Source of the DNA: Runella slithyformis DSM 19594
Lineage (GTDB): Bacteria > Bacteroidota > Bacteroidia > Cytophagales > Spirosomataceae
NCBI RefSeq assembly: GCF_000218895.1
Contig: NC_015703.1
Coordinates: 3,795,001 to 3,859,000 of the forward strand
DNA length: 64,000 bases
Direction: 5' to 3'
The translations under genes and the position numbers were made by a program. Below the pieces are notes generated by a model. The model searched no databases. It saw only the letters and a list, made by a program, of their open reading frames with translations, and was not told the origin of the DNA. Positions 38,636 through 62,366 of the stretch are shown here, one piece after another (position 1 is the first letter of the stretch; every line of letters begins with the position of its first letter).

Positions 38636-41600
38636 TTATTTTTGCGCCTCACTTACTGTCACGGCGCTTGTGCCGCAATTGCCGATGATGGCCTGAAAGG
38701 TAGTTCTATTGGCAGAGAAGCCCGGCAGCAGCGTCACGGATTGACTGCCCTGATAGACGATGGTCGCGCCTGAGACCTGATTGGTGGCGGTGATTCTGCC
38801 GGCGGTTTTCAGCACCGTTCCCGAGGTGATGGGGTCGGTGAGGGTGAGCGTAGCGGGTCCTGAGCCGGCCGTACCTGAGCTTTCATACGCTCCCATATCG
38901 ACAATGCCGGCAGCCGAGGGAAACGGTCGGGGATTGCCGTCGAGGTCGATGGGTGGTAAAGCGTCGGCGTTATTGGCGGCATCAATGGCGGGTGAGCAGG
39001 GCTGCAAATGATAATCACCCAAAGCGGTTAGCGGGGCTAGGTTGCTCGGGGTAGGACTCATAAAGAGGGGGTTTTTGCTGAGGTTGCCCGTACCCGTAGA
39101 TCCACCTTCGACGATGCTGTAAGTGGCAGTGCTTCCGTTGGTGGATTGGGGGGCGGAGTTGCCCCAAACGATGGAGTTTTTGAGGGTCGTGACGGCGTTG
39201 GTGTTGAAGATGCCGCCGGCAGTTCCGTTGGTTCCGAGGTTGGAGGCGACGGTACAGTGAATGAGCGTGGGCTGACTTGCGTTGACGTACAGCCCGCCGC
39301 CAAGTCCTTTGTTGGAAACAATGAGTACGTTTTCAAAACGGGGTTTGCTGCCGCCCTGTATATAAACTCCACCACCAAATGTGGCTTCATTGCCCCAAAT
39401 GATGGTTTGGGCAATGAGCAGATGACTGCTGTCGCGCAAAAACATACCCCCGCCGAAGGTAGCCTTATTGTCGGTGATAATGCAGTTACTGACTGTACCT
39501 TTGCTTTTAGCGGTAACCAGAATTCCACCCCCCGACTGTTGAATGTCCGGATTGTTGAGGTTGGTGGATTGATTGCCGGTAAAGAAATCGCCGAAGGCTT
39601 TTTCAATGTGGAAACCGTCGAGCCGGGTTTGGTCGTTGGTGCCGCTGAAAAAGACGACGTGGTAGGTATTATCGCTGCGCTGGGCGGTTCCGATCTCTCC
39701 GCTGAGGAGGGTTTTACGGGCTTTCCAATCACGGGAAGTGAGTTGGTCTTCGTTTCCGACAAAGCCGCCGTATATTTTTACGCCGGAAGGAATGGTGAAC
39801 ACATCTTTGCGCAGGGTGCCGGGGGTGTAGGTGCCTTGGGCAACCCATACTTCAAGCGGCGTGTAAGAAGAAGCCTTTGCGGCGCTGAGTCCTGCCTGTA
39901 AAGAGGCGAAAGCCGTGGCCCATGCCGTTCCGTTTTGGGTGGAATTGGTGTTGGCCGTGTTGACAAAGATGCGCTGCCGAACCAAAACGGTGACACCGGC
40001 GGAAGGGGCGCTGAAACAGGTGGCACTGCCGAGGATCTGCCGGCATTTGGCGTAGTAGTTTGTAGTGACGGCGGGTGAAACGGGCATAGAGACGGGACTG
40101 TTGTCAGCAGCATTGAACCACAACAGGGTAAATCCTTCTCCGGTGCAACCGGCGGCGGTCAGGGTCTTGGCCTGCCCTGCATAAAGGGTATCTCCTTTGG
40201 GATTGGCAGGCACGGCGGGATCCAATACATCCACCGTGGCATTTCCAAGTTGGATTTGGGTGCAGTTGTTGGCATCGCTGACGCTGACGAGGGCGTAAGA
40301 GAATATTCCTCCCGACACGGTCGGAGCGGAGACGGAGACGCTGCTGCCTTCGGTGGTGGTGAGGGTTTGGTTACTGCCACTGTTGAGCGTATAGGTAAAG
40401 GTATACGGCGCTTTTCCGGCACTTCCCGTAAAGGTAACCGGAGGCGCAGGAGCGTCTTTGCAGACCTGAGCGGTGCCCGAGATCGCTGCGGTGGGCAGTG
40501 TGTTGATGGTGACGGCGACGCTGCCCGTCATGGTGATCGTGCAGTTGGCGGCTGGGACGGAAAGTGTGCCGTTTGCCCCACTGCCGGATACAGGCTTAGA
40601 GGCTTCAACGGTATAGTTTCCGGCGGCGGTTTGGTTGCCGAAGCTGATGGCTGCGCCCGTACCTGCCACGGGAGTTCCTGCGTTGACGTTATCTTTTTTA
40701 AGCTGATAACTGACGCCCGATTCAGAATTGGAAAGCCCAACGGCTACTCCCGAACCGCCGGCGCAGTACGCCCCGCCGCCGGTGACGGTGTAAGCCGTTG
40801 GTAAAGCTGTAATACTAATCGTCACGCTACCTGTCATGGTGGCAGTGCAGTTACCTGTGGTGCGAGTGGCAACAACTGTGTAAGTACCTACCACTGTTTT
40901 ATTACCAAAAGAAATGGCTGAACCTGTCCCATTCACAGGTGAACCATCATCTACATTGTCTTTTTTGAGTTGGTAGCTTACACCGCTTTCTGAGTTAGCA
41001 AGCTCAATGGCTACGCCGCTACCGCCTGCGCAGTAGCTACCACCACCCGTGATGTTGAAAGCCGTGGGTGGCGTACAGACCGCCATTGTTATCTCATTGC
41101 TCGTAGCCGTCGTAGGCGAAGCGCAGGCCGCATTACTCGTCATTTCGACCTTGATTTTATCGCCATGGGCCAGGGTCGTAGTGGTATAAGTAGCACCCAT
41201 TTCGCCAGAAATGGTGATGTTGTTCTTTTTCCAGACGTAAGTAGGCGTTGTGCCGCCGTTGGTGGGCGTAGCCGTGAAGGTTACACTTGTGCCAGCGGTA
41301 ATGCTGCCTGTGGGGTTGGCAGCGATGGATACGGAGGGGGTGCAGGTAGTGACTGTCCCACAAACTGACAAGCCCAGATTTGTACCCGCATATATTTTCG
41401 AACTCGTCACATAGACGGTTCTGACAAGATTTGATGCAAGACCTGTAGTATTGGAGGTGGTGTAGTTGGTAAAACTGTTGCCCCCATTCGTAGAAATGGA
41501 CAAGCCACCTCTTGTTGCTGCATAGACCGTTGTACCGATGACTTGAATACCATTCAAATCATTGCTTCCCAGACCGTCTGCGGTTGTTTTGTGCGTAATG

Positions 41601-43708
41601 GTTGCCCCATTATTGGTGATAATATCCACCCCACCTTGTATTATATTGAATTGTTGATAGCTTTCCCTCATTGCAACATACATTGTTCCGCCTACAATAG
41701 CCACGCTATTAACCCTATTTGACTTCAAGCCATCTGCCATCGTTTTTTGTATAAAACTGCTGCCACCATTCGTAGAAATATAGATACCGTTGTTGCTACC
41801 TGCCAATACCGTAGTGCCCGATACGGCGATACACATAATACTACTGCTTAGGCTTGTTGTGGTGAAATTAACCCCACCGTCTGTGGAGATAGCCACGCCG
41901 CTTTGAGTGCCGACGTACACATTTGAACCCGATACGGCGATACAATTAGCAATAACATTACCGAGTGAGATATTGGTCGTAAAAGTGGCACCTCCATTGG
42001 TGGATTGGGAAAGCCCTTCTCTGGTAGCGGCAAAGACCTTTGAGCCAGAAGCATAAACGCCATTTACTTCAATACTTGCTAAGCCACTGTTCTCGGGCAC
42101 TTTTTGGGTAAAAGATGTGCCGCCATTGGTTGAAATATCCAAAGAATTGGCGAGACAGGCATAGATATTCGACCCATCCACAAAAATACTATTTATCCTG
42201 CCAAAAAAGTCACTGCTCAACCCGTTGGCAGTGGTGTACGTCGTGTAAGCAGTACAGACGGGGCCGTTGGTGCTGGGCGTGTTCACAGTCATAGTTATCT
42301 CATTGCTCGTCGCCGTAGCAGGCGAAGCACAAGCATCGCTGCTGGTCAGTACACAGGTAATCTTATCGCCATTGGCCAAAGCCGCATCGGTGTAGGTGGC
42401 ACTGTTGCTGCCTACATTAGTATTGTTTTTCTTCCATTGATAAGTGGGTGCCGTACCGCCGTTCACTGGTGTTGCCGTGAAGGTCACGCTTGTGCCGGTG
42501 GTGATGGAGTTGCCGGGGTTGGCGGTGATGCTCACGGAGGGGGTGACGGGGTTGCAAGCACTACACGCTCCCGTAGTAATAGTAAGAGTAGGAGTGCCGT
42601 TAGTTGCAACCCAACCCGTGAGTGGAATAGCCAAATCAGTGGAAGGATTTGAAAAAATTATATTACTCTCTTCATCGAAGATATACCATTTTCTTGGTAG
42701 TGGATGATCTGGCGGAACTAATGCTAATAGGGCATTTAGATCAGTATTTTGCAGCGCACGAGTATAAGCCGGAAGCGTCGTTTCTTCAAACGTCCCACTA
42801 ATGTTAGGAGCACTGGATGATATGCAAACAACTGCCTTAGGATCTCCCCAGCTAATGGTTATACTGCCGTCGCCATTATTATTGCCTTGCGTATGCACTA
42901 CATTCGTACAAAGGGTAGGGTCAGTATATGAGCTGCCACCGCCGCCACCAAACTCAGGAGATTGATTATCATCAAGATCGAAATCTCCAGCGCCACCACC
43001 ATAATAGCCACCACCACCACCACCTGAACTGCTGGCCCAAGCGTCGCCGCCAATACCTAATGAACCACTTTTATTACCTGCACCACCTTCACTTTGTGTA
43101 GCACCTTGACCTGCTCGTGTACCACCTTGAGCTGCTCCTCCTGTGGTTCCGCCACCTGCACCACCTGCTCGGTTGGAAAATGGAACGCCACCACCGCCGC
43201 CCCCTGCCACTAAAACACGGTTAGAAAGGGAATTACCACCGATGCGGATATCGGTAGCACCACCGCCACCGCCACTACCTGTACCATCGCCATTGTAACT
43301 ATCAGTCAAACCGCCTCCATTGAAAGCTCTTGCCGCACCGGCAAAAGAAGAAGCCAATTGCCCTGCTTTTCCTTGACCGCCAACATAAAGATAGAGGGCT
43401 GTGCCTGGTGTCACGGCAAGCGTTGCGTTCACTGTACCGCCTTGACCACCCAGACTATTGGGTATAGTAGTAGAATTCCCATCGCCGCCTTTTGCACCTT
43501 TAGCGGTAACTTGAATACTTGTTACCCCGGTGGGTACGACCCATTGTTGCTCGCTGCCTGTTAAATTGAAGGTAACAGTGGTTTGGGCATTCGATGCCCC
43601 TGGCGTAAGCCAAGCCAGCACACCTGCCCACAGCAGCAGTGCAAAAAAAAGACGAAGGTTATGAGTTGGCCCTTGGTCTGCCATTAAAAATGAGTGTCGG
43701 GTGTTCAT
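38636..43708 (-). CDS. Giant secreted surface protein (glycine-rich, beta-propeller, beta-helix)
   Basis: The start at 43708 (MNTRHSFLMADQG) is preferred over ATG 43807 because the signal peptide FFALLLWAGVLAWL...SNAQ follows it. The 1690-residue protein has, in order: a glycine-rich domain with many GGGGG runs (about 50-300); Ig/PKD-like modules (TSVTFTATPVNGGTAPTYQW, occurring twice); sialidase-type propeller repeats with STNGG tags; two near-identical GGG.YCAGGSGVA modules; a right-handed beta-helix; and a C-terminal module (SVTLLPGFSANRTTFQAIIG) like the 3-coathanger stack domain. It probably acts in adhesion or matrix. No PorSS C-terminal signal was identified. Confidence 0.85.
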   Translation of the reverse strand: MNTRHSFLMADQGPTHNLRLFFALLLWAGVLAWLTPGASNAQTTVTFNLTGSEQQWVVPTGVTSIQVTAKGAKGGDGNSTTIPNSLGGQGGTVNATLAVTPGTALYLYVGGQGKAGQLASSFAGAARAFNGGGLTDSYNGDGTGSGGGGGATDIRIGGNSLSNRVLVAGGGGGGVPFSNRAGGAGGGTTGGAAQGGTRAGQGATQSEGGAGNKSGSLGIGGDAWASSSGGGGGGYYGGGAGDFDLDDNQSPEFGGGGGSSYTDPTLCTNVVHTQGNNNGDGSITISWGDPKAVVCISSSAPNISGTFEETTLPAYTRALQNTDLNALLALVPPDHPLPRKWYIFDEESNIIFSNPSTDLAIPLTGWVATNGTPTLTITTGACSACNPVTPSVSITANPGNSITTGTSVTFTATPVNGGTAPTYQWKKNNTNVGSNSATYTDAALANGDKITCVLTSSDACASPATATSNEITMTVNTPSTNGPVCTAYTTYTTANGLSSDFFGRINSIFVDGSNIYACLANSLDISTNGGTSFTQKVPENSGLASIEVNGVYASGSKVFAATREGLSQSTNGGATFTTNISLGNVIANCIAVSGSNVYVGTQSGVAISTDGGVNFTTTSLSSSIMCIAVSGTTVLAGSNNGIYISTNGGSSFIQKTMADGLKSNRVNSVAIVGGTMYVAMRESYQQFNIIQGGVDIITNNGATITHKTTADGLGSNDLNGIQVIGTTVYAATRGGLSISTNGGNSFTNYTTSNTTGLASNLVRTVYVTSSKIYAGTNLGLSVCGTVTTCTPSVSIAANPTGSITAGTSVTFTATPTNGGTTPTYVWKKNNITISGEMGATYTTTTLAHGDKIKVEMTSNAACASPTTATSNEITMAVCTPPTAFNITGGGSYCAGGSGVAIELANSESGVSYQLKKDNVDDGSPVNGTGSAISFGNKTVVGTYTVVATRTTGNCTATMTGSVTISITALPTAYTVTGGGAYCAGGSGVAVGLSNSESGVSYQLKKDNVNAGTPVAGTGAAISFGNQTAAGNYTVEASKPVSGSGANGTLSVPAANCTITMTGSVAVTINTLPTAAISGTAQVCKDAPAPPVTFTGSAGKAPYTFTYTLNSGSNQTLTTTEGSSVSVSAPTVSGGIFSYALVSVSDANNCTQIQLGNATVDVLDPAVPANPKGDTLYAGQAKTLTAAGCTGEGFTLLWFNAADNSPVSMPVSPAVTTNYYAKCRQILGSATCFSAPSAGVTVLVRQRIFVNTANTNSTQNGTAWATAFASLQAGLSAAKASSYTPLEVWVAQGTYTPGTLRKDVFTIPSGVKIYGGFVGNEDQLTSRDWKARKTLLSGEIGTAQRSDNTYHVVFFSGTNDQTRLDGFHIEKAFGDFFTGNQSTNLNNPDIQQSGGGILVTAKSKGTVSNCIITDNKATFGGGMFLRDSSHLLIAQTIIWGNEATFGGGVYIQGGSKPRFENVLIVSNKGLGGGLYVNASQPTLIHCTVASNLGTNGTAGGIFNTNAVTTLKNSIVWGNSAPQSTNGSTATYSIVEGGSTGTGNLSKNPLFMSPTPSNLAPLTALGDYHLQPCSPAIDAANNADALPPIDLDGNPRPFPSAAGIVDMGAYESSGTAGSGPATLTLTDPITSGTVLKTAGRITATNQVSGATIVYQGSQSVTLLPGFSANRTTFQAIIGNCGTSAVTVSEAQK

Positions 43709-43868
43709 AAATTTGGGATTGGTTGATTTAGAAGGGCTCCTTTCGGGCCTGTAAGCCCCCCGATCGGGAAGAGAAAAAGGAGGTAATGGAAAAAATAGGT
43801 GGGTCAATTGATGGATTGTTGACTGAATGGTTTATTTTTGCCAAATGTCTCAAGGGATTTATAAATAT

Positions 43869-53282: not shown

Positions 53283-54794
53283 CTATAATACACGCTCAAT
53301 TTCCTTTAGTATCTCGATTACCTCATTTGCACTTTCTTTAAAAGCGACTTTTGCTGTACCTTGATTATTTAATATCCAATTTTTTACTTCATTTAATAAG
53401 TCTTTTTTAGCTTCTCTTTTTTGCTTTTTATCTACAATATGAAGCACATTTTCTACTTGCTTTTGAAATAGTTTTGGGTAATATTTTTCAAAATCATGTT
53501 CGGAGAACTGCATAAACCTATTTGCACTCCAACCACTTGGGGTATATTTGGATTTTAAACTATCAATAACTTTACATTCTTCATCACCTGAATCTATAAT
53601 CACCCAGACTCTGTTTTTATATGTTGGCTCCAAGTGAATATATACAAAGAGTTTATTGAAATCTTCAAATTTCGGTTCAACCTGTTTTAAAGAACCTGCC
53701 GAAAAAGTTCTAAGTTTACCTATCAAAGAAGGCGTATACCATTTAATAAACCATTCTCTAATTAGTACTTCAGCTGAAGATTCTTCTAAAAACAACCATC
53801 CTTTCCAAATTTCAAAATCAAATGTCTCATACCCTAAATCCTCTAATATTTGTAGTCTTTCTTGCGGGTCTTGTGAAACTTCTGTAACATTAGATACAAA
53901 TAAATTTTCTCTATAAGAGTCGCTTTTTTCGCTCGTTACATTAAATATTTTAGTGGATACATTTCCGCCTAAATATTTCATGACAATATTTGAATGTGTC
54001 GAAATGAAAAATTGATTTTTGTCAGAGTGTTCAATGATTAAATTTAGTAATGCCTTCAATGCTTTTGGGTGAATATCATTCTCTAGTTCTTCTATAAGAA
54101 AAATTTTATCCTTGGCAACGCACAAATCAGTTATTAATCCTATAATATTTGCAACTCCTTCTCCCATAGATGATAAAGGAATTTTTTCATCACCGTCAAT
54201 AAAATATACAGCTTCTTTTCCATCAATTGTAGCTAGAGTAGATACCTCAAAACCCAAAATACTATTGCATGCTTCTATATATTTTTTATTGTACTTGTAT
54301 TGGGGCGTAATTATTCTGTCAATCTTTGCGTATAAATTTTGAAAATTACCAATAACGGCATTTGTATTTTGAGAATTAATCTGTGTTGTATACTTAACTA
54401 CTTTGCGTTTTGATAAATAGGGATATATTAAATTGTCTGGCTCACTCTGAGGGATTTGAAAATTATATTTAGATACTCCCAATGTGGCTTTTAAGTCGTA
54501 TGTACCATGTCTTAATTCAATTCTTATAATTCTGTCTGAATCAGCCAAGTCATCTATAGGGAAATTAGGTGAAGTACCTAGGAATCTAAAGTAAACTAAG
54601 CCTGTGTTTTCCCCAATAGTAATATCTTCTTTTGAGAAAGTGTTAGGGTTTTGAATATGTAGTATACTGTTAAGGATTGTTGATTTTCCAGTATTGTTTG
54701 CTCCTATGAATAAGTTGATATTCGGTGATAAATTCTCAATAGTGTTATTTTTAAAACCTCGAATATTAGTTAATCCAATAAATGTAATTTTCAT
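53283..54794 (-). CDS. OLD-like ATPase with C-terminal Toprim-like nuclease region
   Basis: The 503-residue protein has an ABC/SMC-type ATPase (about 1-300): Walker A GANNTGKST (31-39), signature-like PLSSMGEG (206-213), Walker B FLIEELEND (232-240) and THSN switch (267-270). The C-terminal part has WLFLEESSAEVL (Glu338 region), VWVIIDSGDEE (Asp401/Asp404) and FSEHDFEKYYP, consistent with a Toprim-like catalytic core. OLD and related ATPase/Toprim proteins (GajA; PARIS-like fusions) act in anti-phage defence. The exact class cannot be fixed by eye. It occupies the left cargo slot of the element. Confidence 0.75.
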   Translation of the reverse strand: MKITFIGLTNIRGFKNNTIENLSPNINLFIGANNTGKSTILNSILHIQNPNTFSKEDITIGENTGLVYFRFLGTSPNFPIDDLADSDRIIRIELRHGTYDLKATLGVSKYNFQIPQSEPDNLIYPYLSKRKVVKYTTQINSQNTNAVIGNFQNLYAKIDRIITPQYKYNKKYIEACNSILGFEVSTLATIDGKEAVYFIDGDEKIPLSSMGEGVANIIGLITDLCVAKDKIFLIEELENDIHPKALKALLNLIIEHSDKNQFFISTHSNIVMKYLGGNVSTKIFNVTSEKSDSYRENLFVSNVTEVSQDPQERLQILEDLGYETFDFEIWKGWLFLEESSAEVLIREWFIKWYTPSLIGKLRTFSAGSLKQVEPKFEDFNKLFVYIHLEPTYKNRVWVIIDSGDEECKVIDSLKSKYTPSGWSANRFMQFSEHDFEKYYPKLFQKQVENVLHIVDKKQKREAKKDLLNEVKNWILNNQGTAKVAFKESANEVIEILKEIERVL

Positions 54795-54833
54795 ATATTA
54801 ACTTCTGAAAGTATCAATTAAATGTACTGAAAA

Positions 54834-55367
54834 TTATTTTTTTCTTTTTAATTCCCTCATTTGCTCATCAGCCCTTTTCTTCAAGTCCTCTTTCAGCTTT
54901 TCATTAAATACCTCATTAGGCATTGCACCTAATATGCCCATTGATAAACTAGTAATTGCCTCACTTGACACTGAGTCATTGGAAAGCATAGTCTCTAAAG
55001 AATCCTTGTTTTTTTCAGCGTATCCCTTTACGCCTTCAAACATTTGACTTATTATATTTAAACTATTTAGATGACCCTTGTTTTGTTCTTCTAAGTCCTT
55101 TACTTGCTTCCTGAGTAATTCATTCTCTTTTTCCAGTTCTATCTCCCTGTCTGAATGTCCGGCACTTTGGGGTTTACCCATCAAAATTTCAAAGATTGAT
55201 ACCCCTAAAGCTTCTGCTATATTTTCCAGTTGTTCAATAGTCAACTTTTTTCCCCTTGCTTCAAAACGGGCGTAGTTTGACCGCTCAATTTGCAGTTTAT
55301 CAGCTACTTCCTGTTGAGTCAGGTGCTTAGATTCTCTAAGCTTCCGTATAGAGTTTGATATATCCAT
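54834..55367 (-). CDS. XRE-family repressor with C-terminal coiled coil
   Basis: The start at 55367 (MDISNSIRKLRESKHLTQQE) is chosen because upstream in-frame codons run into the divergent gene. The 177-residue protein has an XRE HTH (about 5-65; QEVADKLQIERSNYARFEAR) then a coiled coil (REIELEKENELLRKQVKDLE) and a helical tail. This is the layout of phage C2/CI-like repressors in Bacteroidetes. It probably holds the switch with the small divergent gene at 55473. It lies 40 bp upstream of the OLD-like gene on the same strand, so it may also control that. Confidence 0.85.
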   Translation of the reverse strand: MDISNSIRKLRESKHLTQQEVADKLQIERSNYARFEARGKKLTIEQLENIAEALGVSIFEILMGKPQSAGHSDREIELEKENELLRKQVKDLEEQNKGHLNSLNIISQMFEGVKGYAEKNKDSLETMLSNDSVSSEAITSLSMGILGAMPNEVFNEKLKEDLKKRADEQMRELKRKK

Positions 55368-55486
55368 GTACAAAATTATATACATTATTCTTAAAAAATG
55401 GTACAAATAATTTGGAAGTTGAGTGTGATATTCTATACATTTGCATAAAATATTAATCATTAATGTATCAATATGTGTACAAAATT
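55368..55486. promoter_or_regulatory. Divergent operator region of the element switch
   Basis: GTACAAAATT occurs at 55368-55377, directly against the repressor start, and at 55477-55486, inside the start of the divergent gene. GTACAAATAATT lies midway (55401-55412). Repressor sites overlapping both starts would give a phage-like bistable switch. Confidence 0.5.
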
Positions 55487-55694
55487 GACATCCCAAACAC
55501 CTTTACAAACGGCTGTACAATCCTTTGAGGATAAGAACCTCACGAAATTTCAGCCTACCGCGAAGTTTTACCCGTATGTGGGTATCAATCGCATCCGATT
55601 TTGGCAACTGGTAGAAGGCAAAAAGCGCCCTACTTATGATGAGGCTCTAAGTTTGTCAAAGTATTTTGGCTTACCCTCAGAAGTACTTTTCTAA
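55473..55694 (+). CDS. Small HTH protein, possible Cro- or excisionase-like regulator
   Basis: The 73-residue protein ends in a helix-turn-helix-like stretch (VGINRIRFWQLVEGKKRPTY then DEALSLSKYFGLPSEVLF), reminiscent of minimal Cro/XRE regulators. It is divergent from the XRE repressor and sits 72 bp upstream of the integrase, with a terminator between. The likely role is control of excision or early genes. Confidence 0.7.
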   Translation: MCTKLTSQTPLQTAVQSFEDKNLTKFQPTAKFYPYVGINRIRFWQLVEGKKRPTYDEALSLSKYFGLPSEVLF

Positions 55695-55699
55695 TCAAA

Positions 55700-55732
55700 G
55701 AAGCCCTACACCGTTGCAGCGGTTGTAGGGCT
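55700..55732 (+). terminator. Terminator between the small HTH gene and the integrase
   Basis: AAGCCCTACACCG and CGGTTGTAGGGCTT form a long stem with one bulge, followed by an A/T tail. Confidence 0.75.
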
Positions 55733-55766
55733 TAACTGTTTCACCATCAATGTCTAAAAGTAAAAC

Positions 55767-57041
55767 ATGGCAAATCTACAACAAAAAAGATTGAATCAAC
55801 TGCTAAAGCAGTCAGAAAAGGGAAAAACGGGTAAACGCTCTAAATTCGGGATGTTTACCACTTCGTTTTCGGTCGCACCCAGCAAACGACATGGAGGCAC
55901 AATTTACGCTTTATTACGAAATCTAAACTGCGTTGAAAGATTCAGTACCGGGATAATTTGCAGTCCTGAAAACTTTGATTTTAAAACTCAAAGAATCAGT
56001 AACGACCCGACAAAAAATAAACTCCTTGACTATATTCAGAGTCAGGCCAATGAGCTATACGCTCAAATGGTATTGACTGACAGAGATATAAGCCTGAAAG
56101 TAATTAAAAATGCTGTTTTAGGTACTCAATCGTACTTAATTCCAAACCTGTTTGAATTGTTGGATGCCTATTTGGCCGATTGTGGGCAAAGGGTAGGGGT
56201 ATCTCATGCTCATCGTACCTACCAACGCTACAGACAGTCAAACGGGATTATTAAAGACTTTGTACGTCACCAATACAAAACCGAGAAATTACGCTTATCT
56301 GACTTAAAGCCGATTATTGCCCGACAACTTGAAACCTTTATGGTAGTTGAAAGAAGAAACCAATACAGCTATTTTGTAAAGGTAGGGGAATATTTCAGGC
56401 AGGTTTTGCACTACGCTTTACTCAACGAATACATTGATGTTAATCCTTTATCACTTCATAAATTCGTAAAACGTCGTAAACCTATTGAATACCTAACACC
56501 GGACGAATTAGTTACTATTGGTACTGCCAATGTTATTCCGGAAGTCTTGCAAAAGGTGAAGGATTGCTTTGTTTTTGGCTGTTTAACAGGTCTGGCCTAT
56601 CAGGATTTAAGGGATTTAAGTCCAGGTCAGATTAAGACATTGAACGACGGTCAAAAATTGATAATGTTGGATAGAGGAAAGACCAAAAATCAACAAGTTG
56701 CACCGTTGCGTCCCGAAGCGGTAAGACTGCTTGAAAAGTACAAAGATGACCCCTATTGCAAAGCTGTAAACGTATGTCTGCCAATATTGAGCAACCAACG
56801 ATTTAATACCCGGTTGAAGGAGTTAGCCCAAATAGCAGGGATAGAAAAGAAGGTTACAACTCACTATATGCGCAGGACATACGCTACGCATTTAAAACGA
56901 TTGGGCGTATCTGCCGAAATGATTTCCAAGTCTTTGGGAAACACTTCTGTAGCAATTACGGAGCATCACTACATTGATAATGATCCTGAAACTATTGTAC
57001 GGATTTTAAATGAAGCCTTTGACAAACAAAAGGCTGTTTGA
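55767..57041 (+). CDS. Tyrosine-type site-specific integrase
   Basis: The 424-residue protein has an N-terminal arm-binding region (about 20-110), a SAM-like core-binding domain (about 128-225) and a catalytic domain (about 240-410). Catalytic elements: H366-x-x-R369 in THYMRRTYATH, His400/His401 and Tyr402 in ITEHHYIDND, and Lys305/307 in the beta hairpin. The first Arg position reads TGLAYQD, a substitution frequent in Bacteroidetes mobile-element integrases. It should recombine the 14-bp core in tRNA-Ser. Confidence 0.93.
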   Translation: MANLQQKRLNQLLKQSEKGKTGKRSKFGMFTTSFSVAPSKRHGGTIYALLRNLNCVERFSTGIICSPENFDFKTQRISNDPTKNKLLDYIQSQANELYAQMVLTDRDISLKVIKNAVLGTQSYLIPNLFELLDAYLADCGQRVGVSHAHRTYQRYRQSNGIIKDFVRHQYKTEKLRLSDLKPIIARQLETFMVVERRNQYSYFVKVGEYFRQVLHYALLNEYIDVNPLSLHKFVKRRKPIEYLTPDELVTIGTANVIPEVLQKVKDCFVFGCLTGLAYQDLRDLSPGQIKTLNDGQKLIMLDRGKTKNQQVAPLRPEAVRLLEKYKDDPYCKAVNVCLPILSNQRFNTRLKELAQIAGIEKKVTTHYMRRTYATHLKRLGVSAEMISKSLGNTSVAITEHHYIDNDPETIVRILNEAFDKQKAV

Positions 57042-57060
57042 GTGCTGTGTAAAAACAAAA

Positions 57061-57084
57061 AAGCCTTACCGTTTGGTAGGGCTT
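57061..57084 (+). terminator. Terminator after the integrase gene
   Basis: AAGCCTTACC-GTTT-GGTAGGGCTT forms a 10-bp stem with one wobble pair, then TCTATTTC. Confidence 0.8.
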
Positions 57085-57153
57085 TCTATTTCAAAATGTA
57101 AATAAGTTACCGTTTTGGCGAACGGGTTTTCACTTTAATAACGACATAAATTT

Positions 57154-58335
57154 ATGGGAAATACCGGTAATAACAAAATCTATCGGATTGATGAAATTGA
57201 AAATTATCTTTCCAATAAGTACGAAATCCGTATCAATGTCATTACAAATACCATTGAAAAACGCTTAAAGAATACTAATGATTCTTTTGAGCCGGTCAAT
57301 GAGAATGATTTAAAATACGAACTTCTGAAAGCAGGACATACCAGATTTGACGGTGAGTTGAAAGCTTTACTCGGTTCATCGGTAATCTCAAAGTACGACC
57401 CATTGAGAGAGTATTTTGTGGGCTTGCCTCACTGGGATTCTTCGCAACCCGACTATATCCAACAATTATCGACTTACGTTAAAACGGACGACCAAAAATG
57501 GTTTGAATTAATGTTTAAAAAGATGTTGGTTAGAGTTGTTGCCCAATCATTGAATAAAATTCAATTTAATAAGCATTGCTTCACTTTTGTAGGGAATCAG
57601 CATGACGGTAAAACATCATTCTTTGATTTTCTCATTCCTGCCAAGCTAAAGCCGTATTCACGCAGTAATTATGATTTTCACGGAGGGCGTGAGGGCAAAA
57701 TATCCCTTAGTCAGAACTTTATCATTAACTTGGATGAATTAGGGCAGTACGAGAAAAAAGACCTCAATAATGAGTTTAAAGCTACTTTATCAGAAGGATA
57801 CGTAAAGCTTCGCCCCTTGTATTCCAATAATGAAGTATCAATTCCTAGGCGTGCGTCATTCGTGGCTACAACAAACAGCCGCGATTTTCTAACTGATGCT
57901 ACGGGTTCAGTCCGTTGGATAATTTTTAATGTGTTGAGTATTCAGCATGATAACGGAGAACAAAACGGATACAATAAAAACGTAGATATTGAAAAAGTGT
58001 GGGCGCAAGCTTATAGCCTGTTAAATGAAGGTTTTAAGTGTGAACTTACTCGTGATGAAATTAATCAAAACGAAATCCTGAACCGTCGCTTTTTAAGGGT
58101 AACGACTGAAATGGAGTTGGTAGCTTCCCACTTTGAGAAAGCCGAAAAAGGGCAGGAGGGAGCAAAGTTTTATACCCCTTCAATGATTGAAAAAATCCTG
58201 CGTGAAAAAGGATTTCCAAAACTGCTTCCTACCCAAATTGGGGCAGCTTTAAAAATGTTAGGATTCCCACAATCATCAAGTTGGAATGGTGTATTACGCT
58301 ACTCCGAAAAGGGCTATTTTCTCATTGAGAAGTAA
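57154..58335 (+). CDS. VapE-type replication ATPase
   Basis: The 393-residue protein matches the virulence-associated E superfamily 3-like ATPase. Walker A is GNQHDGKTS (147-155), Walker B is FIINLDELGQ (189-198), sensor-like segment SFVATTNSRDFL and arginine-finger region TGSVRWIIF. In PICIs and phages VapE works with a primase to start element replication at a dedicated origin. Here a Toprim primase lies 349 bp downstream, across a candidate origin. Confidence 0.88.
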   Translation: MGNTGNNKIYRIDEIENYLSNKYEIRINVITNTIEKRLKNTNDSFEPVNENDLKYELLKAGHTRFDGELKALLGSSVISKYDPLREYFVGLPHWDSSQPDYIQQLSTYVKTDDQKWFELMFKKMLVRVVAQSLNKIQFNKHCFTFVGNQHDGKTSFFDFLIPAKLKPYSRSNYDFHGGREGKISLSQNFIINLDELGQYEKKDLNNEFKATLSEGYVKLRPLYSNNEVSIPRRASFVATTNSRDFLTDATGSVRWIIFNVLSIQHDNGEQNGYNKNVDIEKVWAQAYSLLNEGFKCELTRDEINQNEILNRRFLRVTTEMELVASHFEKAEKGQEGAKFYTPSMIEKILREKGFPKLLPTQIGAALKMLGFPQSSSWNGVLRYSEKGYFLIEK

Positions 58336-58336
58336 A

Positions 58337-58586
58337 TTTTGCCTACTCGGTTACTCGTTATACTGTATTGTGCTGATAATCAATATATTAATATATAGAA
58401 AAGCGAGTAGATACTATCTTACTCGTTCCTACTCGTTACTCGGTTTTTAAGTGTTTTTGTAGTAAGAACCGAGTAGACAGTAATACCGAGTAAAGCCTTT
58501 ATCACTCGTTAGAATAATAAATAATTAGTTATTAGTCAGAGACTTATATTGTCAAGGGTACAGGACGAGTAACCGAGTAGGCAAAA
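58337..58586. repeat. Candidate replication origin: iterons within long inverted repeats
   Basis: A 22-bp perfect inverted repeat bounds the region. The left arm is 58337-58358 (contains GCCTACTCGGTTACTCG) and the right arm is 58565-58586. Between and within the arms, the pentamer ACTCG/CGAGT occurs about eleven times, on both strands, mostly as TACTCGG or TACTCGT. The centre is A/T-rich (near 58510-58550). The position between the VapE ATPase and primase genes is where satellites often carry an origin. Confidence 0.65.
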
Positions 58587-58684
58587 GCGAAAAATTCTAT
58601 AAACCATTTGTATAAAAATGCTGATTGGTAAAAAGAAAGAATTGAATTTAATCAAGTTTTAAGCCGCTAAAAAGAAAAGAAGAA

Positions 58685-59557
58685 ATGATACCAAACGAAG
58701 TAATACAACGTCTAAAGACTATCCCGATAACGGCCTATCTTTCGAGTATGGGCATTGAACCCGTAAAAGAGCAAAACGGGCAATTGCTTTATTATTCACC
58801 CTTCAAAGACGAACATTCACCGTCATTTTTTGTAAACCCTCACAGAAACGTTTTTAAAGACTTTACGACGAACGACAAAGGCGGTGATGTAATCACGTTG
58901 GTACGTCGCTTAAAAGCCTGTGATTTCGCTAAAGCCGTTCAATTACTGGAAGTATTCGACGGAATAACCAGTTCTTTTTCTTTTAACGGCCGAATAAAGC
59001 CCTACGTTGAAAAATCGCCCCTTGAAGTACTCAAAGTAAAGCCACTGGAAAATAAAGCCTTGATTGCCTATTTAAGCAATGTACGCGGCATTCCTTTTGC
59101 CATTGCTTCCAAGTACGTGAAGGAGTGTTATTTTAAAGTCAACGACAAATATCAATTTGCTGTTTGCTTTGAAAATGATTTGAAAGGCTTAGAACTGCGA
59201 AACGTTTACGTACAGCTATCAACCAACCCCAAATCAATAACTACCCTCAAAGGAACTGATAATTCAACAGCGTTGATTTTTGAAGGCTTTATGGACTTTC
59301 TGTCCTATATCGTTTGTCAGGGAAAAGAACCGGATTGTGATGTTATCGTTTGCAACTCAATTTCAAACATCAATAAAGCTTTACCGATTCTCAACAAATA
59401 CTCTACATTATTGGCGTATCTTGATAATGATGCAGGAGGAAAAACAGGAGTAACGACTATTCAAAACGCAGGTATAAAGCTAACGGATTGCAGCGGATTG
59501 TATGCACCCTACAAAGACCTTAATGAATATTTAACTAAGTGGTTTTTGCAGCGGTAG
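58685..59557 (+). CDS. Toprim primase-like protein
   Basis: The 290-residue protein has a degenerate CHC2-like N-terminal domain without cysteines (YYSPFKDEHSPSFFVNPHRN, KDFTTNDKGGDVITLVRRLK) and a Toprim domain with Glu200-Gly (LIFEGFMDFL) and the D247-N-D249 pair (LAYLDNDAGGKTG). This is the DnaG-like organisation found in Bacteroidetes mobile elements. It would prime replication of the element from the candidate origin upstream. Confidence 0.88.
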   Translation: MIPNEVIQRLKTIPITAYLSSMGIEPVKEQNGQLLYYSPFKDEHSPSFFVNPHRNVFKDFTTNDKGGDVITLVRRLKACDFAKAVQLLEVFDGITSSFSFNGRIKPYVEKSPLEVLKVKPLENKALIAYLSNVRGIPFAIASKYVKECYFKVNDKYQFAVCFENDLKGLELRNVYVQLSTNPKSITTLKGTDNSTALIFEGFMDFLSYIVCQGKEPDCDVIVCNSISNINKALPILNKYSTLLAYLDNDAGGKTGVTTIQNAGIKLTDCSGLYAPYKDLNEYLTKWFLQR

Positions 59558-59562
59558 CCGAC

Positions 59563-59600
59563 GTTCTACGCGCGGGCGCATTTTAGCCCGCGCGTAGAAC
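59563..59600 (+). terminator. 15-bp GC-rich hairpin after the primase gene
   Basis: GTTCTACGCGCGGGC (59563-59577), loop of eight, GCCCGCGCGTAGAAC (59586-59600) is a perfect stem six bases after the stop. It lacks a U-run. Its high GC stands out in an A/T-rich element, so a REP-like or origin-related role is also possible. Confidence 0.6.
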
Positions 59601-59728
59601 ACTGAAAAAACGATGAGAATATGCAGAAAATACCGCAGAAAAACCTACAGAAAACCGGTCAAAATGGCTGTTTAACCGGTCTTTATACCAACAATAAACC
59701 GTATATAAATCAGATATAACTCGGACAA

Positions 59729-59947
59729 ATGGAAAAAAAGAAAAGCAACCGCAACTACAATTTTATCAGCGTCAGTAAGGATAAGGTTCATTACGAATCT
59801 TACGGAAAAGTAACAGAGATAGGAATGTTTTACCGGAAAGAATGCCTTTACTGTAAGGTGAACTTTGAAGCCCGTAGGATTGATACTGCCTTTTGTACTC
59901 ATAATTGTCAAAAGGCGTATAGGCGTAGAGAAATGAGAGCCAATTAA
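59729..59947 (+). CDS. Small zinc-finger-like protein
   Basis: The 72-residue protein has a four-cysteine motif: CLYCKVNFEARRIDTAFC and then THNCQKAYRRREM. It is basic and ends in a positively charged helix, like small DNA-binding zinc ribbons of mobile elements. Convergent with the reverse transcriptase gene; 41 bp separate their stops. Confidence 0.65.
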   Translation: MEKKKSNRNYNFISVSKDKVHYESYGKVTEIGMFYRKECLYCKVNFEARRIDTAFCTHNCQKAYRRREMRAN

Positions 59948-59988
59948 TATAATAAATTATATATTACTGAAATAACTTCGATAATAAG

Positions 59989-61467
59989 CTACCTTTTGGG
60001 TAGCTTATATTTTTCCTCATAAAAAGTAATATAATTATTTAGGTTTCGCCAATGTCTTTTTAATTGACTTTTAATAGAGTTCCCGTTAATGATTTTTGAT
60101 GCCTTATAAGCATATGCGATAAAATTTAGGTTGCCTAAATGGCTATATCTTTTATATATCTTTTTTTTATGAATCTGGGTGTGAATCGTTGATTTCTTTT
60201 TCTGCAAGAAAGAAGACCGTAAGGCTTTAAATTTAATGAGGCTTTTCATTTTTCTGTAGTATTTGGCAATACTTGCAGATTTTATTCTTATTGTAAGTCC
60301 ATTAAATTCAAATCCTAAATACCTTAAAGGCATAGAATCTTTATCTAATACTAATTCTTTATTTAAATTCCTTTTGAAATATGATACCTCAGTTTTGTCT
60401 TTATTAATTATTAGTTTGTAATCTTCTATCGCATTAATTACAAAATTTTTTAGATGCGTTTCATCTTTTAATTTACAAACTATAACTATATCATCAGAGT
60501 AACGCCTATAAATTCCTTCAAAATTTGTTACTTCATTAAAAACTTTAGTGTCAAATTCAAGTAAGTATAAATTAGCTAAAAATGCACTAATAGCTGTGCC
60601 TTGTGGAATGCCTTTAAGGTGTCTTTTTTTATAGCTTTTTAGCTCTAAATAATCAATTTGATTTTTTTTGTACTCAAATGGGTGAGGTTTTACTAAAGAT
60701 TTGCATTTTTTGTTTTCTCTTCCACACACTTTTAACCTAAACTCTTTATTGTTCTTACAGTACGACTTTATATTTTTATTTTTAATAATTCTTTTGATTT
60801 CAAACCTATTACCAATATTAAGTAAACCTAATTCATTAAGTAATTCCGACTCCTCAACAAATGAAAAATTTGTTAAAGATTTATATATATTGTAGTGGTC
60901 GTCAGGTAATTTATTGCTGTTTAGTAGGTTACACCATGCTTTTTTTAAGTGTTGATGGTTAAGGCTATCAAAGAATTTCTCAATATCAAATGTTAAAACT
61001 GCACATTCATCATATTGTTTAATGCAATTAAAAACATCATTTGCAAAGTGAATATTTGATTTTCCTGATTTTGTATTTGGATGAACCTTTATAGTCCTAT
61101 ATGCTGATATACAATTTGATAATCCATCTATTTCCTTTATTTTGCCTTCATACTTTGGTTCTAATTTAACCTTTGTATAATATGCATAGATTAATGTATC
61201 TAAATGATTAGCATAGTATATCTGTCTTTCTTTTGCTGTTGATTCCTTTTTGGTAGAGTCAAAATGTGAGCGCTTCCCATCAGTTAGTTTTTTATACCTT
61301 CTTTGTATTATTACCCGATGAATTAATGGATAAAATGAGTATGTTTTAATTTTTTTTTCAGAAGAAACAAATTCTTTTGCCCAATCAAAATCTTGTTTTG
61401 TTATTTTTGGTGAAAAATGAAGATAGCTTTTTAGCTGAAACCAATCATTTTCTTTTTCTGACTCCAT
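59989..61467 (-). CDS. DRT2-like defence-associated reverse transcriptase
   Basis: The 492-residue protein is a retron-unrelated, group II-intron-like RT palm without maturase or endonuclease domains. Catalytic motifs: LTFDIEKFFDSL (Asp161), KGIPQGTAISAFLANLYLLE (285-304), and the YSDD box at 323-326 (YRRYSDDIVIVCK). The N-terminal block WFQLKSYLHFSP, YYANHLDTLIYAYYTKV and LPDDHYNIYKSLTNFSFV resembles DRT2 (UG2) anti-phage RTs as I recall them. DRT2 needs an upstream ncRNA, and such a region is present (61548-61892). Very A/T-rich. The DRT2 label is by recall, not by a search. Confidence 0.75.
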   Translation of the reverse strand: MESEKENDWFQLKSYLHFSPKITKQDFDWAKEFVSSEKKIKTYSFYPLIHRVIIQRRYKKLTDGKRSHFDSTKKESTAKERQIYYANHLDTLIYAYYTKVKLEPKYEGKIKEIDGLSNCISAYRTIKVHPNTKSGKSNIHFANDVFNCIKQYDECAVLTFDIEKFFDSLNHQHLKKAWCNLLNSNKLPDDHYNIYKSLTNFSFVEESELLNELGLLNIGNRFEIKRIIKNKNIKSYCKNNKEFRLKVCGRENKKCKSLVKPHPFEYKKNQIDYLELKSYKKRHLKGIPQGTAISAFLANLYLLEFDTKVFNEVTNFEGIYRRYSDDIVIVCKLKDETHLKNFVINAIEDYKLIINKDKTEVSYFKRNLNKELVLDKDSMPLRYLGFEFNGLTIRIKSASIAKYYRKMKSLIKFKALRSSFLQKKKSTIHTQIHKKKIYKRYSHLGNLNFIAYAYKASKIINGNSIKSQLKRHWRNLNNYITFYEEKYKLPKR

Positions 61468-61547
61468 TATATGTTTAATATTATAACTTCTGATTTTTAA
61501 TCCTTTGCCTATAAAAAGTTCGCTTTTAAATTGATTTTGAGATAGAA

Positions 61548-61892
61548 TATAAAATATCGTAGGTTGTACTTAGTGGCTTCAGTTTTCAAAATACTTGGCT
61601 GACTTACACACAATACATTGATGTATTGTGCTACCCATTTTATCACTTATAGCCACACCCGAAATGGTAGATTTGTGCTTATCTTTGTATCACAATATAA
61701 ACTTGGAAGTCTAAATTATGTCAAACACAGCTTTTGGATTATTCGTTACATACAAACCACTATCAAACTCTTGTAGAAATTTCTATTTGCGAAATACCAA
61801 GCCTAATTGCCTATGCAATTAGCACCGTATTTAACGGCTATGGGTAGGACAAATGCACAAGTAAAGATCATACAACACTACGATATTTTATA
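61548..61892 (-). ncRNA. Candidate template RNA of the DRT system
   Basis: The transcript, read on the minus strand, begins and ends with complementary arms. TATAAAATATCGTAG plus GTTGTA (61548-61568) pairs with 61871-61892 through 21 base pairs and one bulged base. Inside are further stems: CTAATTGC-CTAT-GCAATTAG (61803-61822), CCGT-ATTTA-ACGG (61825-61837), CACAATACAT-TG-ATGTATTGTG (61609-61630), and CTACCCATTT with AAATGGTAG (61631-61670). It ends 80 nt before the RT start. No protein gene fits here. Stop-free stretches of 171 nt (plus strand, 61603-61773) and 135 nt (minus strand, 61512-61646) overlap its 3' half. Confidence 0.65.
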
Positions 61893-61970
61893 CTCAGAAT
61901 AGTTAATTTTAAACGATAAGGTGCTTAAATAGTGACTATTATGCTGCAATATCAATAGAAATTAGGTATA

Positions 61971-62018
61971 AAAACAAGCATAAGCACTGTTATTTTTTAT
62001 GATTTTTATGCTTGTTTT
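61971..62018. repeat. 13-bp inverted repeat upstream of the candidate ncRNA
   Basis: AAAACAAGCATAA (61971-61983) is the exact inverse of TTATGCTTGTTTT (62006-62018), with a 22-base spacer. It may be a terminator or regulator binding site. Confidence 0.5.
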
Positions 62019-62090
62019 AAATAATTAAATATTTAACCTACAATTTTGAATAAACCAAAGTTAGAGATTAAACCAGTCAATGGAGAGTCC

Positions 62091-62148
62091 ATTATTAATT
62101 ACAAAAGGGTTAAACAATCAAATGTTTAACCCTTTTGTAATTAATAAT
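62091..62148. terminator. 26-bp perfect hairpin near the right end of the element
   Basis: 62091-62116 and 62123-62148 are exact inverse complements with a six-base loop (ATCAAA). The inner part contains AAAAGGGTTAAACA and TGTTTAACCCTTTT. A/T-rich ends make it suitable as a bidirectional terminator that insulates the reverse transcriptase locus from the tRNA. Confidence 0.75.
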
Positions 62149-62211
62149 AAAGGAAAGAATGATTTTAATAGATTGAATTTGAGTGAGTTATAAACTTGAA
62201 CGTGCTTTGGT

Positions 62212-62271
62212 GCTCATAATCAATTAGTGATGAAAATTAATATATTTTTCTGTAACTAATTGATTATGAGC
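62212..62271 (-). terminator. 17-bp inverted repeat next to the tRNA 3' end
   Basis: GCTCATAATCAATTAGT (62212-62228) and ACTAATTGATTATGAGC (62255-62271) enclose 26 bases. The right arm is eight bases from the att core, so it may be an integrase/excisionase arm site as well as a tRNA terminator. Confidence 0.5.
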
Positions 62272-62278
62272 GAATTGG

Positions 62279-62292
62279 GCAGAGAGGAAGAG
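62279..62292. repeat. Right attachment site inside tRNA-Ser
   Basis: GCAGAGAGGAAGAG lies at the tRNA 3' end and is repeated exactly at 53202-53215. The tRNA stays complete, as expected when the element restores the 3' end. Confidence 0.75.
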
Positions 62293-62366
62293 ATTCGAAC
62301 TCTCGATACGGTTACCCGTATACACACTTTCCAGGCGTGCTCCTTCAACCACTCGGACACCTCTCT
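62280..62366 (-). tRNA. tRNA-Ser(GGA)
   Basis: The 87-nt gene reads 5' AGAGAGG (acceptor) on the minus strand. The D arm contains TGTCCGAGTGGTTGAAGGAG. The anticodon arm is CACGC-CTGGAAA-GTGTG with anticodon GGA. A long variable arm (TATACGGGTAACCGTATC) is the class II hallmark of serine tRNAs, and the T loop is TTCGAAT. The 3' strand is CCTCTCT with discriminator G. The integrated element lies directly 3' of it. Confidence 0.97.

Follow-up and report, generated by a model that had tools for sequence, protein, structure and literature searches.

In the KpnDRT2 system, whose reverse transcriptase (RT) has the active site YCDD, a template of 120 nt is described as being copied by jumps between ACA motifs, with a sigma-70 promoter arising at the junction of the repeats and the gene neo running antisense to the non-coding RNA (ncRNA) (PMC12039810). 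For 42 close homologs of KpnDRT2 the same paper reports that all repeat units are divisible by three and without stop codons, and a unit not divisible by three is expected there to break neo. RNAs were predicted in the first DRT2 preprint, which states that the annotation of Neo is harder in divergent clades and suggests other mechanisms for these (PMC11100668). By title or start of abstract, nothing on neo in Bacteroidota was found among the DRT2 papers listed, for which subscription journals lay largely outside the scope, and the term "Bacteroid" is absent from the main texts of PMC12039810, PMC11100668 and PMC12596737. The Bacteroidota promoter is given as TTTG/TANNTTTG and was refined to TAHHTTTG, with a -33 element that is much less evident, and an A at -3 is listed as a positive start signal (PMC6847099); the -7 box agrees with the one in PMC9723704.

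The window analysed here is a stretch of 64,000 nt from Runella slithyformis DSM 19594 (GCF_000218895.1, NC_015703.1, positions 3,795,001-3,859,000), and all coordinates refer to it (Table 1). Its RT was assigned by PADLOC to Drt2 with an E value of 3.5e-139 (best other family: 1.1e-23), DRT2 chains in the PDB were matched at E values of about 3e-62, and the active site, YSDD, is intact, as belongs to a DRT2 (UG2) RT, so that the DRT2-like RT proposed in a first-pass annotation of the sequence was borne out. That annotation gave no strand for the RNA upstream of the RT; since the RT is encoded on the minus strand, the RNA has to be read from the minus strand and the antisense (neo) strand is the plus strand. 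Judged by sequence, the locus is a predicted DRT2 anti-phage system of a Bacteroidota bacterium.

Relatives were sought in 1982 genome searches, in which many genomes were covered more than once. A single close partner of the RT was obtained from them, at the locus L021 (49% in the match, 48% identity over the alignment), and the two RTs form a clade with a support of 0.999 in the tree. The RT with the next-best score, L101, was not retained as a clade member, its membership being not firm (support 0.014). In viral contigs no further members of the clade were found with the window RT, the L021 RT or their alignment as queries; one viral contig matched a DNA pattern derived from the template, which was taken as chance because there was no RT on the contig stretch examined.

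The DRT2 system seems to lie in a satellite-like island (53283-62366) adjoining a tRNA gene. A genome search that allowed up to 2 mismatches did not return a duplicate of the tRNA end, which would mark the other end of the island. Two perfect inverted repeats (62091-62148 and 62212-62271, with arms of 26 and 17 nt) lie in the interval from the DRT2 RNA to the tRNA gene. Elsewhere in the window, a direct repeat of 28 nt occurs in three copies (41470-42136) inside a long minus-strand ORF (38636-43807, 1723 aa).

Table 1. Features of the island and of the predicted DRT2 locus (window coordinates)
Feature	Position	Strand	Basis
AAA protein matching AriA/GajA-type defence models	53283-54794	-	model matches
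HTH regulator	54834-55496	-	model matches
Integrase	55767-57041		
VapE-like protein	57154-58335		
Primase-like protein	58685-59557		
DRT2 (UG2) RT, 492 aa, YSDD active site	59989..61467	-	PADLOC, PDB sequence comparison, motif
Predicted DRT2 template ncRNA, including both arms of the closing stem	61545..61895	-	fold, stem, shuffles
Closing stem, 3' arm	61545..61569	-	fold
Closing stem, 5' arm	61870..61895	-	fold
Hairpin of 8 pairs immediately 5' (RNA sense) of the 5' jump word	61803..61822	-	fold
171-nt stop-free stretch in the 3' half of the RNA, frame of lap two	61603..61773	+	frame scan
Predicted cDNA repeat unit of 130 nt (neo strand)	61666..61795	+	join search, comparison with L021
CGAAAT jump word bounding the unit	61790..61795 and 61660..61665	+	join search
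-7 element TATCTTTG	61680..61687	+	sequence; consensus TAHHTTTG (PMC6847099)
-33 element TTTG, brought to 20 nt from the -7 element only by the jump	61786..61789	+	junction comparison
Putative neo ORF, first lap, ATG to junction, 26 codons	61718..61795	+	ORF search of the concatemer
Putative neo ORF, second lap, from the junction to the stop codon TAG (61774-61776), 36 codons plus stop	61666..61776	+	ORF search of the concatemer
tRNA gene	62280-62366		Rfam

A structured ncRNA directly upstream of the RT and on the same strand, as is characteristic for DRT2 (UG2) systems, is predicted in the window. The closing stem of 21 bp noticed in the first-pass annotation is real and slightly longer, comprising 25 pairs with small bulges and ending 78 nt from the RT start; the repeat search returned its core of 18 nt with 94% complementarity and 315 nt between the arms. 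The minus-strand fold of 61468-61910 has an energy of -108.8 kcal/mol (z -4.8) that was reached by 0 of 100 shuffles, and the plus strand (61540-61900) folds well too (z -5.3). For comparison, 16 loci with the anchor motif were folded, the seventeenth, L101, being without the anchor. Their longest enclosing helices range from 8 to 29 pairs, while the 192 pooled shuffles (12 per locus) averaged 7.8 pairs and never exceeded 22; as 8 pairs were reached by 96 and 17 pairs by 15 of these shuffles, the 8 pairs of L055 and the 17 pairs of L021 are not rare alone. RNAalifold applied to six close relatives of another subclade gave 83 pairs, of which 14 show a two-sided change at least once. Two of these 14 pairs belong to the closing stem (columns 8/343 and 12/339, in one sequence each), and 6 of the 9 pairs of that stem are disrupted or gapped in one or two sequences. 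This result bears on the family and not on the stem of the window itself. By eye only, a hairpin at a place like that of the window hairpin was seen in L021, and the 3' domain of the window RNA may contain a GUGGC/GCCAC helix; in systems of the KpnDRT2 type a 3' pseudoknot as well as tower and buttress hairpins are bound to the RT thumb. A plasmid search with the ncRNA found nothing.

In many relatives, TATCTTTG-like -7 motifs are present in antisense orientation close to the 3' end of the probable template. Joins of template ends through a common word of 5 nt or longer that place TTTG upstream of the -7 motif were searched in 97 loci, 47 of which have a -7-like motif in range. Excluded from this set were L001, L007-L015, L020, L034-L039, L069, L070, L076, L077, L097-L100 and L124 (the locus itself, partial or weak loci and second pieces of one gene) as well as L081 (contig end). 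The spacing between TTTG and the -7 motif peaks at 20, with 10 loci compared to 0-5 at any other spacing from 10 to 30, although the rows are not independent, several loci being related. In 8 of these 10 loci (L016, L019, L022, L026, L047, L055, L085 and L089; 141-156 nt) the unit length is a multiple of three and a stop-free frame is present in every case; the remaining two loci are the window, with a unit of 130 nt, and L105, with one of 77 nt. When the 5' part was shuffled in 40 rounds, spacing 20 occurred in a mean of 1.65 loci (maximum 5) and with an open frame in 0.05 (maximum 1). The jump word is GGTAT or GGTATA in 7 of the 8 endless loci and a different one in L047. The relatives thus point to a Bacteroidota promoter of the type TTTG-N20-TAHHTTTG that would be built by the join of template ends at a short shared word. 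The rule accounts only for those 8 loci, and most of the 97, with other or no -7 motifs, are left unsolved.

As an illustration and not as a count, 15 rows with spacing 20, a word of at least 4 nt and TTTG or TTG were picked by hand. Left out of these were L046 (129 nt, open, TTTG-N20), comparable candidates in L042, L056, L067, L105 and L110, second candidates in L002 (114), L016 (229), L021 (147) and L055 (141), and candidates with other spacings such as those of L006, L018, L023, L060 and L073. Spacing-20 joins in L105, L110, L042 and L056 give units that are not divisible by three (77, 100, 125 and 148 nt). In group A the jump AATTTC (141 nt) was rejected, which is open in L022, L026 and L055 but makes the promoter only in L055; the GGTAT join (153 nt) makes it in all three, so that L055 has both joins. 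A large DRT2 group (L003, L004, L005, L023, L024, L025, L043, L057 and similar) shares a TGACTCA that is conserved close to the template 3' end, and in these eight loci antisense open stretches of 162-345 nt are found; no consistent jump word was found in this group, and the jump ACTCA, tried in L003-like loci, gave no consistent unit. A positive control was performed with sigma-70 elements and words of at least 3 nt in three loci. L079 (Photobacterium, annotated drt2) yielded TTGACA-N17-TATAAT with a 111-nt unit and an endless frame, L017 a unit of 104 nt, and L080 (Psychrobacter plasmid pP62BP1, annotated drt2) a unit of 121 nt (1 mod 3) in which an ORF of 36 codons closes at the junction, a case that is perhaps another stop-terminated neo or chance and was not used as evidence. 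Versions of this control with TGT pairs gave no convincing unit.

Only one join of the window sets TTTG at a spacing of 19-21 with a word of at least 4 nt, namely the one at CGAAAT, which has a unit of 130 nt and a spacing of 20; on the chromosome the -33 place is occupied by CACC. Spacing-20 TTTG joins with words of at least 5 nt occurred in 0.85% of 2000 shuffles of the window. L021 likewise has one such join, at AAAT (4 nt), with a unit of 124 nt and a spacing of 20. The spacer of 20 nt is cut into 6+14 in the window and 12+8 in L021, and that a difference of 6 nt on one side is offset on the other is the best single evidence that the junction is right. In the alignment of both RNAs the 5' jump words are nearly co-located, each following a hairpin (that of L021 by eye). 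Across the junction a promoter of the sequence TTTG-N20-TATCTTTG is thus reconstituted at the level of sequence, as a sigma-70 promoter is in KpnDRT2, and the CGAAAT junction with its promoter is considered likely for the window. The first-pass annotation had proposed to check whether the repeat unit is a multiple of three and stop-free; the 130-nt unit is 1 mod 3, as is the 124-nt unit of L021, and neither contains an endless frame.

Because the units of both loci are 1 mod 3, there is a single cyclic reading of the concatemer. In both loci the longest ORF in this reading is 62 codons long from ATG to stop, with the ATG at the same place and Ile-Met directly following TAA, and positions 61718-61773 of the window are read twice, in two frames. 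The residues at the junction are Arg-Asn|Gly in both, 27 of the 62 residues are shared by the two peptides, the gaps between the two units measure 6, 3 and 3 nt, and an A stands at -3 before both ATGs. The window peptide of 62 residues contains neither D nor E. The stop-free stretch of 171 nt in the first-pass annotation exists and holds the second-lap frame of the 130-nt unit, and it is probably not one endless repeat frame as had been speculated there; in L021 the antisense open stretch is also 171 nt long, at a nearly equal distance from the RT. ORFs of such length are reached by 7.9% of the shuffled window units and 4.1% of the shuffled L021 units, and a unit longer by one base would give an ORF of 68 codons in the window and 43 in L021. 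Since protein similarity between the loci is also present in the unused third frame (z 4.7 versus 6.7 and 5.4), the similarity is no proof of coding. The pattern elsewhere runs counter to a stop, as all published units and 8 of the 10 spacing-20 loci are divisible by three. A stop-terminated neo of two laps, which would take about one and a half turns of the repeat and in which the same template DNA would code twice in two frames, is regarded as plausible from these two loci, with the balance about even and leaning slightly in its favour; the RNA family and the promoter are well supported.

The following course of events is proposed. The minus-strand RNA would be bound by the RT, which after infection would copy the template into cDNA and jump repeatedly from CGAAAT at one template end to CGAAAT at the other, so that a tandem concatemer of 130-nt units would result, of which the second strand would then be made. 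Each junction sets TTTG 20 nt from TATCTTTG and may thereby act as a Bacteroidota housekeeping promoter, the transcript of which would be antisense to the template RNA. A ribosome starting at the ATG at 61718 would cross the junction and, as the unit is one above a multiple of three, read the same DNA again in a second frame until the TAG. The product would be a discrete protein of 62 residues and not the endless Neo of KpnDRT2, and by analogy with Neo it would arrest the growth of the infected cell. In neo systems of the KpnDRT2 type, concatemeric cDNA is triggered by phage and growth is arrested. Taken as a whole, this combination of DRT2 template RNA, CGAAAT jumping, junction promoter and two-lap neo is the best explanation and is given a modest preference.

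The same system could also make an endless neo as in KpnDRT2 via another join, which is considered rather unlikely. ACA-1/ACA-2 jump motifs of the KpnDRT2 type were not found in the window: on the neo strand, TGT occurs in 18 pairs at distances of 36-260 nt, and no pair of Kpn size (111-129 nt) has a length that is a multiple of three. Two others give open units divisible by three, namely 61674/61719 (45 nt), which makes TTG-N19-TATCTTTG, and 61622/61772 (150 nt), which takes most of the 171-nt stretch but makes no promoter. An endless product would conform to all published units, and words of at least 3 nt allow 22 endless joins in the window and 19 in L021. However, the jump word would have just 3 nt, the 45-nt unit would leave the hairpins and most of the RNA unused, all endless joins of the window other than the 45-nt one are without promoter, and in none of the best 15 of the 19 endless joins of L021 does TTG stand at the -33 place. 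The 45-nt unit, which was the first idea, was set aside because by eye no counterpart was found in L021, as none was for the 150-nt pair either. Also rejected were the window jumps CATTT (189 nt) and ATTTG (114 nt), which are divisible by three yet closed in all frames. With TTG instead of TTTG, spacing 20 is obtained by ATTTG (114 nt) in the window and by CAACC (147 nt) in L021, both closed in all frames, and a 115-nt join of the window also arises.

Alternatively, the cDNA of a DRT2 template RNA could act untranslated, or the protein could be a short one-unit ORF (ATG 61718 to TAG 61820-61822 on the chromosome, 34 codons), and the two-lap ORF would then be due to chance, as the 4-8% of shuffled units with ORFs of such length would allow. 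Other DRT families are described to act without translation of their cDNA (PMC12483538, PMC13174585), but a junction promoter would be purposeless without a transcript, and the two loci concur in ATG, stop and ORF length despite their different unit lengths; this reading is judged unlikely. Very unlikely is that the stem is an ordinary structure (a leader, a regulatory RNA or a decayed locus) and the RNA no template. It would fit that at the gathering score Rfam gave nothing but the tRNA (one weak match at the RNA has an E value of 0.49), that by eye no clear Bacteroidota promoter is present upstream of the RNA, and that about 25 inverted pairs of at least 17 nt occur in the two stretches searched (6 + 19, this stem included), so that stems as such are not rare in the window. 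Against it stand the intact DRT2 RT, the exceptionally long enclosing helix and the junction promoter with its compensating spacer parts in L021. That the window RNA is a DRT2 template RNA is regarded as highly probable, and the divergent Bacteroidota template RNA suggested in the first-pass annotation is the best-supported reading, given the DRT2 RT, the structured RNA at the expected place and strand, and the junction-made promoter in relatives and window.

With jump words of at least 5 nt, the rule that a short word places TTTG at a distance of 20 nt from TAHHTTTG yields testable predictions of neo units for 8 loci. The gene would be built by copying round and round, and the chromosome probably does not hold it as such. 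If the two-lap reading is true, gene synthesis by reverse transcription is not confined to endless repeat proteins.

Among the described systems, the working mode proposed here is most like that of KpnDRT2 (PMC12039810, PMC11100668), with which the window shares a DRT2 RT, an ncRNA directly upstream of it, an antisense neo and a template in the middle of the RNA (both predicted in the window), and a promoter made only at the repeat junction. In KpnDRT2 the jump word is ACA and the promoter of the sigma-70 type, whereas they are CGAAAT and of the Bacteroidota type in the window; its unit of 130 nt is not divisible by three and its putative ORF is terminated by a stop, and the closing stem is longer and the RNA larger (about 350 nt compared to 280 nt). 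As the RT is a DRT2 RT but ACA words, divisibility by three and a stop-free frame are not found, the system is filed as a variant. With L016, L019, L022, L026, L055, L085 and L089 the window shares the junction TTTG-N20-TATCTTT(G/A) and the closing stem, but these loci jump at GGTAT(A) and have stop-free units of 141-156 nt that are divisible by three. L021, of the same family and with an RT 48% identical, resembles the window in the unit of 1 mod 3, the spacing of 20, the place of the ATG and the 62-codon two-lap ORF, and differs from it in the 124-nt unit, the jump word AAAT and the sequence of the closing stem.
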